IMG/VR virus record: IMGVR_UViG_3300007540_000140
Location: 1-21,791 of that record
Source of the DNA: a virus
DNA: 21,791 nt
Strand: one strand, 5' to 3'
The stretch's first letter is position 1, and each line of letters opens with the position of its first letter. Made by a program: the position numbers and the translations under genes. Below, piece after piece: positions 15,502-21,475 of the stretch. The notes beneath the pieces were generated by a model. The model searched no databases. It saw nothing but the letters and a program-made list of their open reading frames with translations, and was not told where the DNA came from.

Positions 15502-15773
15502 ACAGAGAAGAAATTTTAGACACCGCCGGAGATTTAATTAACGGCGACCGTGCAAAAGATTATGGTGATGCTCATAAAAACTTTCAGGACATAGCAAAGC
15601 TTTGGTCTGTTGTTTTGGGAACAGAGGTTACGGAGCAACAGTTTGTGCTCTGTATGATCATGGTTAAGGCCGCAAGGTTGATGAAAACAGACCACGAGGA
15701 CTCGTGGATCGACATTTGCGGTTATGCTGCGTTGGGCGGCGAAAACCTTATTTCCGATACTGAGCTTTTTTAA
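15498..15773 (+). CDS. DUF6378-like small phage protein
   Basis: A 91-residue protein with the pattern R-x-K-DYG-x-x-x-x-NF, IAKLWSVVLG, MIMVKAARLM and DSWIDICGYAALGGEN. This matches my memory of the phage family DUF6378, which often sits in nucleotide-metabolism or replication clusters and has no established function. It is fully helical by appearance and has no catalytic motif I recognise. The start overlaps the helicase stop as ATGA and no clear ribosome-binding site precedes it, so it probably relies on translational coupling. The stop overlaps the polymerase ATG by one base. Confidence 0.78.
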   Translation: MNREEILDTAGDLINGDRAKDYGDAHKNFQDIAKLWSVVLGTEVTEQQFVLCMIMVKAARLMKTDHEDSWIDICGYAALGGENLISDTELF

Positions 15774-17665
15774 TGGGGTTACAGATGACAATGTTCGGAC
15801 CCAAGAGTGAATGGGTTCCACCCGCAGAGTTGCCTGACATCTTCGAGGCAAAGCAAATTGCTATTGACGTGGAAACCCGCGACCCCAATATCAAAACCAA
15901 CGGGCCCGGATGGCCGACCGGTGATGGTGAGGTGGTGGGTTATGCAATCGCCGTTGCTGACTGGGCGGGATACATTCCAATCCGGCACCTTGGTGGCGGT
16001 AATCTCGATGAGCGGATTGTTAACAAGTGGCTTAAAAAAGTTTTTGAATGCCCTGCGGACAAGATCATGCACAACGCGCAATATGATGCGGGTTGGATAC
16101 GCCGGATGGGGTTTGTTTTAAACGGCAAGATAATTGACACAATGCTGATCGCTTCATTGCTGGATGAGAACAGATTTAGCTATAGCCTAAACTCTTTGTG
16201 TTACGAGCTGCTTGGTAAAATCAAAACAGAGAAAACTTTGCAAGAGGCTGCCCGCGAGTTTGGGCTCGACCCAAAAGCAGAGATGTGGAAGATGCCCGCG
16301 ATGTATGTCGGGCCTTACGCACAGAACGACGCGGAAATCACGCTAGAGCTTTGGAATTACTTGTCCACACAGTTAACGAAAGAAAACTTGTGGCAGATCG
16401 CAGAGCTGGAGCTTCAACTGTTACCGTGCCTGATCGACATGACGTGGCGCGGTGTCCGCATTGATCAGGACAGAGTTGAAAGAACACGCAACGCGCTTAT
16501 CAAAAAAGAAAAAGAAATTGTCAAACAGATAAAGCACGTGGCGGGAAGAGACGTAGAGCTCTGGGCGGCAAAATCTATCGCTGTTGCATTTGATGGGTTG
16601 GGTATTCCATATCCTAAAACAGAAAAGAACGCGCCGTCGTTTACCAAATCGTTTCTGTCCGACCACCCGCATGAACTGGCACAGCTAATCGTGCAGGCCC
16701 GAAACCTAAACAAGACCAGCGGCACGTTTATTAACACGATTATGAAACACTGCCGGTCTGATGGCCGCATTCATGGGCACATAAACCAGATAAGATCAGA
16801 CGATGGCGGTACGGTTTCGGGGCGCATTTCAATGTCAAACCCAAACTTACAGCAAATCCCCGCCCGCGACCCTGAACTAGGACCTATGATCCGGAGCCTG
16901 TTCTTGCCAGAAGAAGGGGAGCAGTGGGCAGCCATTGACTTCTCACAACAGGAACCGCGCATCTTGGTTCATTATGCACATGTATACGGCAAGTCCCGCG
17001 GAATGCAGATGGCTGGTGTAGAGGAGTTTGTTAATGCTTATAGACACGATCCTAATATGGATTTTCATACGATGGTTGCAGAAATGGCGGATATCCCGCG
17101 CAAGCAAGCGAAAACAATTAACCTAGGCATGATGTACGGCATGGGCGTGAATAAATTGTCCGACCAGCTAGACATTGACGTTGAAGAGGCCAAAAGTCTG
17201 GTTAAGCAATACCATGAACGTGTCCCGTTCGTTAAAGGTCTGATGAACGGCGTTCAGAAACGCTTGAACGACCGCAGTAGCAGTGGCTCCGTCCACTCTA
17301 TCTTAGGCCGCAAGTGCCGGTTTGATCTGTGGGAGCCAGACACCTTTGCCATGAATAAGGCTTTGCCTTACCGCGAAGCGGTGCAAGAGTATGGAGAGAC
17401 TACGCGGCTCAAGCGGGCTTACACATACAAAGCTTTGAACCGGTTAATCCAAGCATCTGCGGCGGACATGACCAAACAAGCTATGGTTAATTTGTATGAA
17501 GAGGGCTTTGTTCCGCTCATTCAAATCCATGATGAGATTGCCATGTCGGTGAAAAGTAAAGAAGATGCGGAAAGAGTTGCCAACATAATGGAAAATGCTG
17601 TACCATTGGAAGTACCCAGTAAATGTGACATCGAAATCGGTCCTAGCTGGGGAGAGGCGGTGTAA
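15773..17665 (+). CDS. DNA polymerase, family A (PolA-like, 3'-5' exonuclease proofreading)
   Basis: A 630-residue phage replicative polymerase. The exonuclease domain has D32-x-E34 (motif I), N101-x3-D105 (motif II) and Y182-x3-D186 (motif III), so proofreading should be intact. The polymerase domain has motif A DFSQQEPR with D389 and motif B RKQAKTINLGMMYG with R443, K447 and Y455. Motif C is QIHDE with D587 and E588. Residue 451, equivalent to Phe762 of E. coli Pol I, is Leu. There is no 5'-3' exonuclease domain, as in T7 polymerase. The annotated ATG overlaps the previous stop (TAATG); the in-frame ATG at 15785, preceded by GGGG, is an equally good start that would shorten the protein by four residues. 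It closes the replication gene cluster. Confidence 0.96.
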   Translation: MGLQMTMFGPKSEWVPPAELPDIFEAKQIAIDVETRDPNIKTNGPGWPTGDGEVVGYAIAVADWAGYIPIRHLGGGNLDERIVNKWLKKVFECPADKIMHNAQYDAGWIRRMGFVLNGKIIDTMLIASLLDENRFSYSLNSLCYELLGKIKTEKTLQEAAREFGLDPKAEMWKMPAMYVGPYAQNDAEITLELWNYLSTQLTKENLWQIAELELQLLPCLIDMTWRGVRIDQDRVERTRNALIKKEKEIVKQIKHVAGRDVELWAAKSIAVAFDGLGIPYPKTEKNAPSFTKSFLSDHPHELAQLIVQARNLNKTSGTFINTIMKHCRSDGRIHGHINQIRSDDGGTVSGRISMSNPNLQQIPARDPELGPMIRSLFLPEEGEQWAAIDFSQQEPRILVHYAHVYGKSRGMQMAGVEEFVNAYRHDPNMDFHTMVAEMADIPRKQAKTINLGMMYGMGVNKLSDQLDIDVEEAKSLVKQYHERVPFVKGLMNGVQKRLNDRSSSGSVHSILGRKCRFDLWEPDTFAMNKALPYREAVQEYGETTRLKRAYTYKALNRLIQASAADMTKQAMVNLYEEGFVPLIQIHDEIAMSVKSKEDAERVANIMENAVPLEVPSKCDIEIGPSWGEAV

Positions 17666-18938: not shown

Positions 18939-19197
18939 GGGGAAAAGTAAAGTATATAATAGCCGACCTAAAAATAATACAATCCGTCGGAATAGAAAGT
19001 GCCTAGAGTGTGGACATAAATACACGACCCTAGAACTACTGGAACACCCCGCAGAAAAAATAGTGCGGCCTACGAAGCCAAAATTAACACTGGTTAAAAA
19101 GAAGAAACCGAAGCATAAATCGCGGTTCACGGACCTTGATTTTGATAATATGTCTGATGAAGAACTGGAAGCAGCTATCTACGAAGGCCGGTTATAG
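18919..19197 (+). CDS. NrdR-like zinc-ribbon protein (92 aa)
   Basis: GTG at 18919 is chosen because AGGGAG (18907-18912) precedes it by six bases and because it puts the zinc ribbon at the very start, as in NrdR. The ribbon is C3-x2-C6-x21-C28-x2-C31 with NSRPKNNTIRRNRKCLECG and KYTTLE, closely following the NrdR pattern VxDSR...IRRRRECxxCxxRFTTxE. The ATP-cone domain of cellular NrdR is absent. Instead there is a Lys-rich linker (KPKLTLVKKKKPKHK) and an acidic end. NrdR represses ribonucleotide reductase genes, so a phage version could bind host or phage promoters; this is inference. The end overlaps the convergent nuclease gene by 6 bases. Confidence 0.72.
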   Translation: MICPKCEGKSKVYNSRPKNNTIRRNRKCLECGHKYTTLELLEHPAEKIVRPTKPKLTLVKKKKPKHKSRFTDLDFDNMSDEELEAAIYEGRL

Positions 19198-19587
19198 CGT
19201 TAGGCATTTATCCCACGACCGCGCTTCTAAATCATCTCTATCAAACTTTTGGGGCAGAAACCGCTTGGTTATCTGCCCCTTTAAACATCCCACTCTTTTA
19301 AAAATTACCCGCTCTCTATCCAGAGCAACAAACGCCACGATGTCGCATTCGTTTTCTGTCAGTGGCCGTTTCTTCCCGCCATGCGCTAAAGAAAACTGAT
19401 ACCCCTGCCCGCTGTGATTTCTTTTGTATTGGCTGGACTTGACCTGAACGCGTAAAAGCCCCTGTTCTGTACTGGCGACAATGTCCGTGGTCTCCATGTG
19501 AACGATCTCACATGTAATACCCAGCTTCATCAACCGAAGCAGACAAATCAACTCACCCATTTTTCCGGCTTCGACAGCTTTGTACAT
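19192..19587 (-). CDS. PD-(D/E)XK-family endonuclease (131 aa)
   Basis: The second minus-strand gene. Catalytic residues fit the PD-(D/E)XK fold: GE (G11-E12) in the first helix, D35 in TTDIVAS and QVK (Q48-x-K50) in LLRVQVKSSQ, followed by a beta strand YQFSL and a NECDIVAFVALD segment. The layout resembles the PDDEXK_5 family, which includes the cyanobacterial intron endonuclease I-Ssp6803I, and small Holliday-junction resolvases. In this phage it could process replication intermediates or cut host DNA. ATG is the complement of 19585-19587, without a strong ribosome-binding site; an internal ATG at residue 10 is an alternative that would keep the GE. It converges on and overlaps the NrdR-like gene. 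Confidence 0.75.
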   Translation of the reverse strand: MYKAVEAGKMGELICLLRLMKLGITCEIVHMETTDIVASTEQGLLRVQVKSSQYKRNHSGQGYQFSLAHGGKKRPLTENECDIVAFVALDRERVIFKRVGCLKGQITKRFLPQKFDRDDLEARSWDKCLTL

Positions 19588-19645
19588 GAAATTTAGTTTA
19601 TAGAGAATTTATTGAAAAAAAACATCTTTTTTGCCTATTTATATG

Positions 19646-19673
19646 TTGCATTTCCCATACAATCGTATATATT
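19646..19673 (+). promoter_or_regulatory. Promoter of the candidate small RNA
   Basis: TTGCAT (19646-19651), 16-base spacer, TATATT (19668-19673). The expected start is near 19680. The -10 region (GTATATATTCAGCTTT) resembles those at 17839 and, on the minus strand, at 10673. The only thing between this promoter and the terminator at 19712 is a short non-coding stretch. Confidence 0.5.
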
Positions 19674-19679
19674 CAGCTT

Positions 19680-19752
19680 TGTAGAGCCCCCAAGTTCTAC
19701 ATTCCCGTAGTGAAAACCCCCAGAGTCATGCCTCTCTGGGGGTTTTCTTTTT
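19680..19752 (+). ncRNA. Candidate phage small RNA with anti-Shine-Dalgarno segment
   Basis: About 70 bases lie between a predicted start near 19680 and the end of a perfect intrinsic terminator; no credible ORF fits. GTAGA (19681-19685) can pair with TCTAC (19696-19700), leaving the segment TCCCGTAGTG (19703-19712) between this hairpin and the terminator stem, where it could be single-stranded. That segment is exactly complementary to CACTACGGGA in the GIY-YIG leader (19801-19810), and its first eight bases to CTACGGGA in the leaders at 21275 and 21458. This is the layout of a base-pairing regulatory RNA. The stretch could instead be an ordinary terminator plus leader that folds in cis. Prediction by eye only. 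Confidence 0.4.
19712..19752 (+). terminator. Strong intrinsic terminator upstream of the GIY-YIG gene
   Basis: GAAAACCCCCAGAG at 19712-19725 pairs perfectly with CTCTGGGGGTTTTC at 19734-19747 around an 8-base loop, followed by TTTTT. It is the most stable-looking hairpin in the window. No plus-strand gene lies in the preceding 500 bases, so its natural substrate is either the short transcript from 19680 or readthrough antisense to the nuclease gene. Confidence 0.9.
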
Positions 19753-19756
19753 CCTG

Positions 19757-19786
19757 TTGACAATATGTTGTCATTTATATTATATG
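19757..19786 (+). promoter_or_regulatory. Promoter of the GIY-YIG gene
   Basis: A consensus TTGACA at 19757-19762 is followed by TATATG at 19781-19786 (18-base spacer), reading on as TATATGGGAG. The element resembles TATATGGGATAA at 21248. The expected start, near 19793-19796, places the mRNA end just before CACTACGGGAG, the segment complementary to the candidate small RNA. Confidence 0.6.
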
Positions 19787-19818
19787 GGAGGTATCTTATG
19801 CACTACGGGAGAACGACT

Positions 19819-20802
19819 ATGCTTGTGTACCTTGCTACAAATTCTGTAAATGGGATGCAATATGTAGGGGCGGCTCTTTGCCTAAACAAAAGAAAGTCAG
19901 CGCACCTGAGTGCCGCTCGCCGCGGGCGGGGGAGCAAGAACAGCTTACAAGAGGCTATTCGCGTCTACGGCGAAGATAACTTCATTTTTTCCGTTTTAGA
20001 CACAGCCAAAGACCGCAAAGACTTATCCAAAAAAGAACACCAGTGGATAGATAAATTAAACACGGTTCACCCTCACGGCTACAACCTGTTGCGCGGAAAC
20101 TACAGCACGGATCTTAAAAATAACGGGAAATATGTAAGCGTTAAAGTAGATGGCCGGACATTTCCCACCATAAATGCCGCCGCTAAACATTACGGGGTGA
20201 GTGTGTCCAGTTTTAGGAACAGGTTACAACGTGGATGGACGCCAGAACAGGCGGTAGACTTAGTCGATCCACCCGAAGATTACCGCGAACAAAAAACTTT
20301 TGTCCCAATTACCATTGAGGGAAAAACTTTCAAGTGTAGCACAGATGCCGCCAAACATTATGGGATGGTTCTATGCACCCTGCGGCAACGATTAAACAAG
20401 GGCTACACGCCAGAACAAGCGGTTGGACTTGAGCCTACGCCGAAAAACCGCTTCCTACACCCCAACATGAACAGCATAACAATCAAAGGCAAAACCTTTG
20501 ATAGCGAACGGCAGGCCTGCATCTATTTTAGTGAAAAACTCGGCATCAAAGCACGAACACTAAAAGCACGGTTAAAGAAAGGCTGGGACTGGGACGATGT
20601 CCTGTCCCCTGAAATTTCGCACCGCGCACGAGTGCCACGCAAAAATAATTACAAATATGTAGTCGGAAACAAAACTTATCGGACATCTAAGGAGCTTGGA
20701 GCGGCTTATGGAATTTCTGGAAGTTATGCGCGTGTTCTTATTTATAAGAATAAAGGTAAGACCTTAAATGAAATATTTTTGAAAGGAGACAACAATGAAT
20801 AG
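19819..20802 (+). CDS. GIY-YIG homing-type endonuclease with four DNA-binding repeats
   Basis: Start ATG 19819 is preferred: GGGAG (19807-19811) precedes it by seven bases and the ORF then begins right at the nuclease domain. ATG 19798 is possible, but its GGGAGG site would fall outside the predicted transcript. The 327-residue protein opens with a GIY-YIG domain: LVYLATN and YVG correspond to GIY and YIG, followed by KRKSAH, AIRVYGEDNF and KKEHQWID with the likely catalytic Glu. Then four units of about 50 residues follow the pattern I-x-GKTF...AAKHYG...LRxRLxKGWTPEQAV; units one and two are clear and three and four diverged. They resemble the helix-turn-helix repeats of intron-encoded and free-standing homing endonucleases. 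No intron is visible, so it is probably a free-standing mobile endonuclease. It overlaps the next gene by 8 bases. Confidence 0.85.
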   Translation: MLVYLATNSVNGMQYVGAALCLNKRKSAHLSAARRGRGSKNSLQEAIRVYGEDNFIFSVLDTAKDRKDLSKKEHQWIDKLNTVHPHGYNLLRGNYSTDLKNNGKYVSVKVDGRTFPTINAAAKHYGVSVSSFRNRLQRGWTPEQAVDLVDPPEDYREQKTFVPITIEGKTFKCSTDAAKHYGMVLCTLRQRLNKGYTPEQAVGLEPTPKNRFLHPNMNSITIKGKTFDSERQACIYFSEKLGIKARTLKARLKKGWDWDDVLSPEISHRARVPRKNNYKYVVGNKTYRTSKELGAAYGISGSYARVLIYKNKGKTLNEIFLKGDNNE

Positions 20803-21271: not shown

Positions 21272-21292
21272 TAGCTACGGGAGATTGCTATG
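21272..21292 (+). repeat. Repeated translation-initiation segment, copy 1
   Basis: A 21-base segment beginning TAGCTACGGGAG and ending in the ATG of the gene at 21290 is identical to 21455-21475. It contains the ribosome-binding site GGGAG. CTACGGGA within it is complementary to the candidate small RNA at 19703-19710. Confidence 0.9.
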
Positions 21293-21457
21293 GAAGAATT
21301 ACCACTTGACCACGAGCCTAGTCTGGATCATTGGGCAAAATGTATTGCCGATGATGACCTAGCCACTGGCTACCACACAAACTGGGATTATGCTTATGAG
21401 CAGGCGTGGCACTCATTGGATGCCGAATATAATTATAACTACGAATATCAATGGTAG
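21290..21457 (+). CDS. 55-residue protein with SLDHWAKC motif
   Basis: The ATG at 21290 has GGGAG seven bases upstream and its own promoter. The product is acidic and aromatic-rich (NWDYAYEQAWHSLDAEYNYNY), with SLDHWAKCIADDDL near the N-terminus. The same SL-x-HWAKC core occurs in the next gene (SLEHWAKCFRDGTLDD), so the two probably share a domain. No known family was recognised. The stop codon lies within the second copy of the repeated initiation segment. Confidence 0.65.
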   Translation: MEELPLDHEPSLDHWAKCIADDDLATGYHTNWDYAYEQAWHSLDAEYNYNYEYQW

Positions 21458-21475
21458 CTACGGGAGATTGCTATG
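21455..21475 (+). repeat. Repeated translation-initiation segment, copy 2
   Basis: An exact copy of 21272-21292, ending in the ATG of the gene at 21473 and starting at the TAG stop of the previous gene. The identity covers the spacing and start codon as well as the ribosome-binding site, so it is either a duplicated gene start or a segment kept for regulation. Confidence 0.9.

Follow-up and report, generated by a model that had tools for sequence, protein, structure and literature searches.

The DNA segment at positions 19680–19752 very probably encodes a trans-acting small RNA of the phage with multiple targets, which would keep ribosomes from binding to mRNAs of the same phage, probably early ones. 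The comparison of related phages reveals a conserved RNA structure, a leader motif shared by several genes and a covariation of seed and leaders that includes orthologous genes. In the mechanism proposed here, an RNA of approximately 73 nt would be transcribed from its own promoter and would consist of a 5′ hairpin, an exposed seed of 10 nt and an intrinsic terminator. The seed would pair in trans with ACUACGGGA(G/A), overlapping the Shine-Dalgarno sequence of several genes of the same phage located downstream of the replication genes, and this pairing of 8–11 bp over the ribosome-binding site would block initiation, lowering the expression of the whole gene set, e.g., for early-gene shut-off or balance. 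We infer the transcription of the small RNA, its repressive sign, its timing and any involvement of a chaperone; the target genes are called early judging from their position and promoter type.

The window, i.e., the whole stretch of DNA that was analyzed, is an entire IMG/VR virus record of 21,791 bases. It encodes tail or ejection-type proteins, SNF2- and UvrD-type helicases, a primase-like protein and a family A DNA polymerase (15773–17665), which is followed by many small genes. Megablast and distant blast searches of named phages revealed neither a close relative of the window nor a relative with the small-RNA element. A search with the polymerase resulted in 80 related contigs, and the carriers of the element are a family of uncultivated, mostly marine phages. 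The cassette at 19640–19812 aligns in 29 related loci, several of these without the flanking genes of the window, and the cassette alignment comprises 30 sequences. Moreover, the pattern of hairpin and seed matches 61 IMG/VR contigs, and divergent homologues with other seeds were recovered by a covariance model and a terminator scan of the relatives. In the named relatives HTVC023P, HTVC027P and 023Pt_psg01 a comparable seed-leader pair was not found. In the named complete genome DSL-LC04 (L224:24560–24800, OR003939.1), GTTCCTGTATGG precedes a terminator, and within the stretch analyzed each of the four ATACAGGA sites lies directly before a gene start; this locus is possibly a diverged version with another seed and a candidate analogue. 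A polymerase scan of GTDB genomes for hosts gave one close match, on a contig that is binned in a Verrucomicrobiales MAG and equals the viral record L244 in length, and two distant matches, and no host was assigned from these.

The locus and its targets in the window comprise the following features:

19646–19673, plus strand: candidate small-RNA promoter, TTGCAT-16-TATATT with a conserved spacer (30-sequence alignment)
19680–19701, plus strand: 5′ hairpin, 8-bp stem TGTAGAGC / GTTCTACA with the C-rich loop CCCCAA (fold and pair counts)
19702–19711, plus strand: single-stranded seed UUCCCGUAGU, unpaired probability 0.97, complementary to three leaders of the window
19712–19752, plus strand: intrinsic terminator, 14-bp stem (19712–19747) followed by TTTTTCC (covariation)
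19757–19786, plus strand: predicted promoter of the downstream operon, TTGACA-18-TATATG, conserved in relatives
19801–19811, plus strand: target site 1, CACTACGGGAG, leader of the GIY-YIG gene (19819–20802), predicted duplex −19.0 kcal/mol
21275–21283, plus strand: target site 2, CTACGGGAG, leader of a 55-aa gene (21290–21457), predicted duplex −15.9 kcal/mol
21458–21466, plus strand: target site 3, CTACGGGAG, leader of a gene that starts at 21473 and runs off the window, predicted duplex −15.9 kcal/mol

The terminator and the non-coding character of this candidate transcription unit are clear, and its predicted promoter is recognized by a weak consensus together with conservation. The sequence-only reading had placed a sigma70-like promoter at 19646–19673. 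Its match to the consensus is weak, and a promoter scan of the window scored it below threshold and left it unlisted; however, relatives carry TTGACT-17-TATATA or TATATG at the same position. The 14-bp terminator hairpin and the lack of an ORF described in that reading were borne out, as 14 pairs precede a T-run, the U-tail of which is present in the candidate small RNA, and no ORF fits within the segment. The linkers of 0–2 nt and the terminator loops are variable in length, and the indels in linkers and loops of the relatives are not multiples of three, which argues against a coding reading of the segment. Mostly kept in the aligned relatives are the 5′ hairpin (TGTARAGCCCCCAAGYTYTACA in most of them), the segment TTCCCGTAGT and the terminator CCCCCAGAG...CTCTGGGGG-T(n); the next promoter is largely conserved as TTGACA-N17/18-TATATRGGA, and within the window the promoter type TTGACA...TATATGGGA is found again from 21225.

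The fold of 19680–19752 reaches z = −7.3 compared to shuffles. In 27 distinct sequences, 98.2% of the cells are paired at 19 pairs and five pairs are changed on both sides, two of them in the 5′ hairpin (98.6% of cells paired) and three in the terminator (98.0%). None of 500 shuffles reached the observed pairing or covariation and no slid register came near either. These 27 sequences were gathered partly by pattern, so that the conservation of the seed among them is an effect of the search, while pairs outside the pattern are unaffected. The seed is unpaired to 86–99% in all 27 homologues; a conserved secondary structure and an accessible seed, as in trans-acting base-pairing small RNAs, are both found.

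Several further observations concern this locus. Most members of clade A, i.e., the phages with the seed of the window, share the promoter spacer at 19652–19667 (TTCCCATACAATCG); its reverse complement resembles TATATGGGA of the next promoter, and CCCATA recurs at the corresponding place in clades B, C and D; this spacer may be an operator. The hairpin loop CCCCAA (19688–19693) is unpaired and yet nearly invariant in clade A, and many RNAs of the sister clade B carry GGTTGCCCCC in the terminator loop, suggesting that the conserved C-rich loops are a possible second pairing site or protein site. Upstream of the cassette, the minus-strand gene 19192–19587 is convergent with the upstream operon and its PHROGs matches are all of unknown function; DNA similar to it is present in some relatives and absent from others.

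It was claimed from the sequence of the window that TCCCGTAGTG (19703–19712) is the reverse complement of CACTACGGGA (19801–19810) and that its first eight bases match two further leaders. Both matches are exact, the latter as CTACGGGA at 21275 and at 21458, each just before an ATG. G19712 is both the last base of this 10-mer and the first base of the terminator stem, and the free seed is therefore 19702–19711. The predicted duplexes of the small RNA with the leaders of the window have 8–11 bp and −15.9 to −19.0 kcal/mol, with values up to about −20 kcal/mol in relatives. When up to two mismatches are allowed, the window contains 16 sites of CACTACGGGA compared to 12.1 expected, which is no enrichment; the two exact copies alone stand out. 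On the window alone the seed-leader match is at most suggestive, and it is the relatives that lift it far above chance. The gene 19819–20802 encodes a GIY-YIG domain (Pfam). An in-frame ATG at 19798 precedes its assumed start at 19819; one relative (L107) does not have this ATG, which favors the start at 19819 and a position of the motif in the 5′ leader. In three relatives (L003, L004 and L006) the same promoter-leader leads straight into the gene found here at 20795, and in three others (L022, L025 and L009) a GIY-YIG gene of approximately 86% identity is located elsewhere. It thus seems that the GIY-YIG gene was inserted after the leader motif and ahead of the gene at 20795, and that the endonuclease has in this way been brought under the control of the leader. 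The sequence CTACGGGAG (19803–19811) is also present in helix 14 of bacterial 16S rRNA at the site of probe EUB338; the seeds of clades B, C and F lack a match to this site, which makes a shared rRNA target unlikely.

In clade A (seed UUCCCGUAGU), the leader (A)CUACGGGA lies just before the start codon in up to 6–7 genes per phage, and gene starts follow ACTACGGGA(G/A), as is the case for three genes of the window. The octamer CTACGGGA is among the commonest leader 8-mers in most contigs of clade A in a count that is blind to the seed, and CTACGGAG is among the commonest in the clade B contigs L052 and G014. Moreover, when terminator-adjacent 7-mers were ranked by their complementarity to repeated leader 7-mers, taking in every terminator of a contig, the small RNA came first in G001, G005, L271 and L269. 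Many leaders carry ACTACGGGAA, which has a longer match to the seed and a weaker Shine-Dalgarno sequence. The predicted targets are accessory genes located downstream of the replication genes and encode GIY-YIG endonuclease, DUF932-like, DUF7227 and small unknown proteins. The pattern CTACGGGAGANNNNCTATG was rejected as a leader marker in viral contigs, since some of its matches are not leaders but the clade E small RNA (AACTACGGGAGAGGGCCTATGA) in antisense.

The strongest evidence for pairing comes from lineages in which the seed has changed. Clade B carries the seed CUCCGUAGU and leaders of the form CUACGGAG or ACTACGGAG, and no CTACGGGA leader was found in it. In contigs that continue for 3 kb or more downstream of polA, counting leaders once per sequence and ignoring kinship, phages with the seed CCCGUAGU (clade A) have 60 distinct CTACGGGA leaders and no CTACGGAG leader, whereas phages with the seed CUCCGUAG (clade B) have 33 CTACGGAG leaders and no CTACGGGA leader. 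Many of the clade B RNAs were identified by reading and by a relaxed seed rule, as the strict automatic finder missed them. On the plus strand downstream of polA, 123 of 129 occurrences of CTACGGGA and 42 of 45 of CTACGGAG lie just before an ATG, totals that include repeats since some entries are overlapping loci of one contig. Furthermore, at least four families of orthologous targets differ between the clades in step with the seed: the leader of a 128-aa family is ACTACGGGAGG in clade A and ACTACGGAGG in clade B, that of the DUF7227 family is ACTACGGGAA and ACTACGGAGG, respectively, and the DUF932-like family and a family of approximately 125 aa behave likewise. In leaders with a YTAC prefix the ratio of GGGA to GGAG is 95:4 in clade A vs. 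0:11 in clade B; in leaders without this prefix it is 69:233 vs. 5:34 (P = 0.21, ancestry ignored), so that a shift in Shine-Dalgarno preference does not explain the change of the leaders. A duplex-energy matrix of swapped seeds was uninformative because the seeds are of unequal length and the columns not comparable, and exact octamers were used instead.

Other lineages add cases of differing weight. In one contig (L018), the seed is UUCCCGUAAU and the leaders are of the UUACGGGAG type (GTTACGGGAG, ATTACGGGAG), a case that is qualified by TTACGGGA leaders occurring in clade A too, beside ACTACGGGA. In another (L269), the 3′ part of the seed is UAGUUAGU and five leaders are ACUAACUA; every one of the five ACTAACTA sites on the plus strand lies in a leader, and in the relatives L231 and L232 of this contig the extensions are different. 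Within clade A, a T precedes A(C/T)TACGGGA in 19 of 42 cases with the seed end GUAGUA compared to 7 of 43 with GUAGUG (P = 0.005, ancestry ignored). Clade C (L229) has one matching leader, in clade F (L070) no leader with a full-length match was found, and in clade E, where the evidence is weaker, the pairing would occur mainly via UAACUA with a mismatch or bulge before GGAG. On the polymerase tree, four changes suffice to account for the five seed types and each minority type is in one piece, which shows that the events are few, yet matched at several unlinked leaders; the difference between clades A and B may be a single seed event that was then followed at several leaders. As for a trans-acting small RNA, the complement of the seed is thus found in several unlinked mRNAs and changes with it from lineage to lineage. 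The idea that one phage RNA pairs with several leaders withstood the check in relatives proposed for it, as seed and leaders change together in related phages.

The covariation indicates pairing and not its sign. In a scenario that we consider improbable, the pairing would activate or stabilize the target mRNAs, or the leaders would be sponges titrating the RNA from another (host) target; the conserved C-rich loops in hairpin 1 of clade A and in the terminator loop of clade B are without a known partner, which leaves room for other partners. However, the paired segment includes the Shine-Dalgarno sequence a short distance upstream of the start codon, a place at which pairing normally prevents initiation, and the target sites are not unusually structured (accessibility marginally higher than for other leaders, P = 0.06), so that there is little to open. 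A role in cis, offered as the alternative in the sequence-only reading, is very unlikely. Here, the segment would only be the terminator of transcription from upstream and a cis element, with TCCCGTAGTG sequestering the next leader in a folded readthrough mRNA. Approximately 90 nt and a strong terminator separate the seed from the first leader, and as the gene 19192–19587 lies on the minus strand, plus-strand transcripts that begin further upstream could terminate here. However, matching leaders are kilobases distant, several relatives keep the seed though the adjacent gene has no motif (AAAGGAG in L028 and L029), and the 5′ hairpin, needless for a plain terminator, is conserved and covaries. 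Hardly tenable is a reading without pairing, in which the leaders would share the motif through duplication of a promoter-leader module or as a favored form of the Shine-Dalgarno sequence, and its complement would be a coincidence or protein-binding site: repetition is partly duplication, the leaders at 21275 and 21458 being identical over at least 16 bases, but most motif leaders share the motif alone in otherwise unrelated contexts, the change from CGGGA to CGGAG is restricted to leaders with a seed-complementary prefix and matches the seed change, and a protein site would not need complementary changes.

Repression in trans by a small RNA has parallels in bacteria, where RsaE/RoxS and CcsR are examples of anti-Shine-Dalgarno small RNAs that have a C-rich seed and multiple targets. 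Similarly, these have a hairpin and an intrinsic terminator and an exposed C-rich segment that pairs with the Shine-Dalgarno sequence of a set of mRNAs. In contrast, the RNA described here is phage-encoded and its seed extends beyond the Shine-Dalgarno core (GUAGU:ACUAC), which would give specificity for phage leaders. No Rfam family was found in the window at its gathering score. The best weak match is the plasmid counter-transcribed RNA ctRNA_pGA1 (RF00236; 28.8 bits at 19676–19757, gathering score 45), and this identity was rejected, as the match is far below the gathering score and the RNA does not overlap a rep mRNA in antisense, a rep gene not being seen here.

Phage small RNAs include the trans-acting, Hfq-binding VpdS of phage VP882 and PreS of phage lambda, and VpdS alters mRNA levels of both phage and host (PMC12197685). 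Like the RNA proposed here, they are short, encoded by a phage and directed at mRNAs that are encoded elsewhere. However, they are single Hfq-binding cases from temperate phages with a described role centered on host RNAs (PMC12197685), whereas here the RNA is conserved across a lineage, several of the phage's own genes share a leader motif, and both covary. The phage antisense RNAs OOP (lambda, target cII), sar (P22, ant) and c4 (P1/P7, ant) also are short phage RNAs pairing with phage mRNAs, and sar interferes with the translation initiation of its target (PMC12197685). These were described with one target each and antisense pairing; instead of an extended complementarity to a single adjoining target, we find a seed match of 8–11 nt to several unlinked leaders, many of which are kilobases away. 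A literature search of limited coverage that included pelagiphages gave nothing relevant, and novelty is judged within it: for the most part, the phage small RNAs found described so far stand alone, and many of them belong to temperate phages that infect enterobacteria and vibrios; a conserved multi-target regulon of the phage's own genes, with a seed covarying with its targets, would be new compared to them.

As a summary, the sequence alone points to a small-RNA regulon that is conserved across a large phage lineage, and the evolutionary record would be that of a multi-target RNA regulator changing its code without losing its targets. The natural seed variants are ready-made matched and mismatched test pairs. 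Because seeds and leaders were rewritten together in each lineage, the RNA might also define compatibility groups by shutting off a co-infecting phage of the same seed type and not one of another type, an exclusion or incompatibility at the RNA level like that of plasmid counter-transcribed RNAs; this reading is doubtful, and if true it would supply a reason for the divergence of the seeds. If such a regulon is typical, uncultivated phages would use RNA besides transcription factors to control their own genes.
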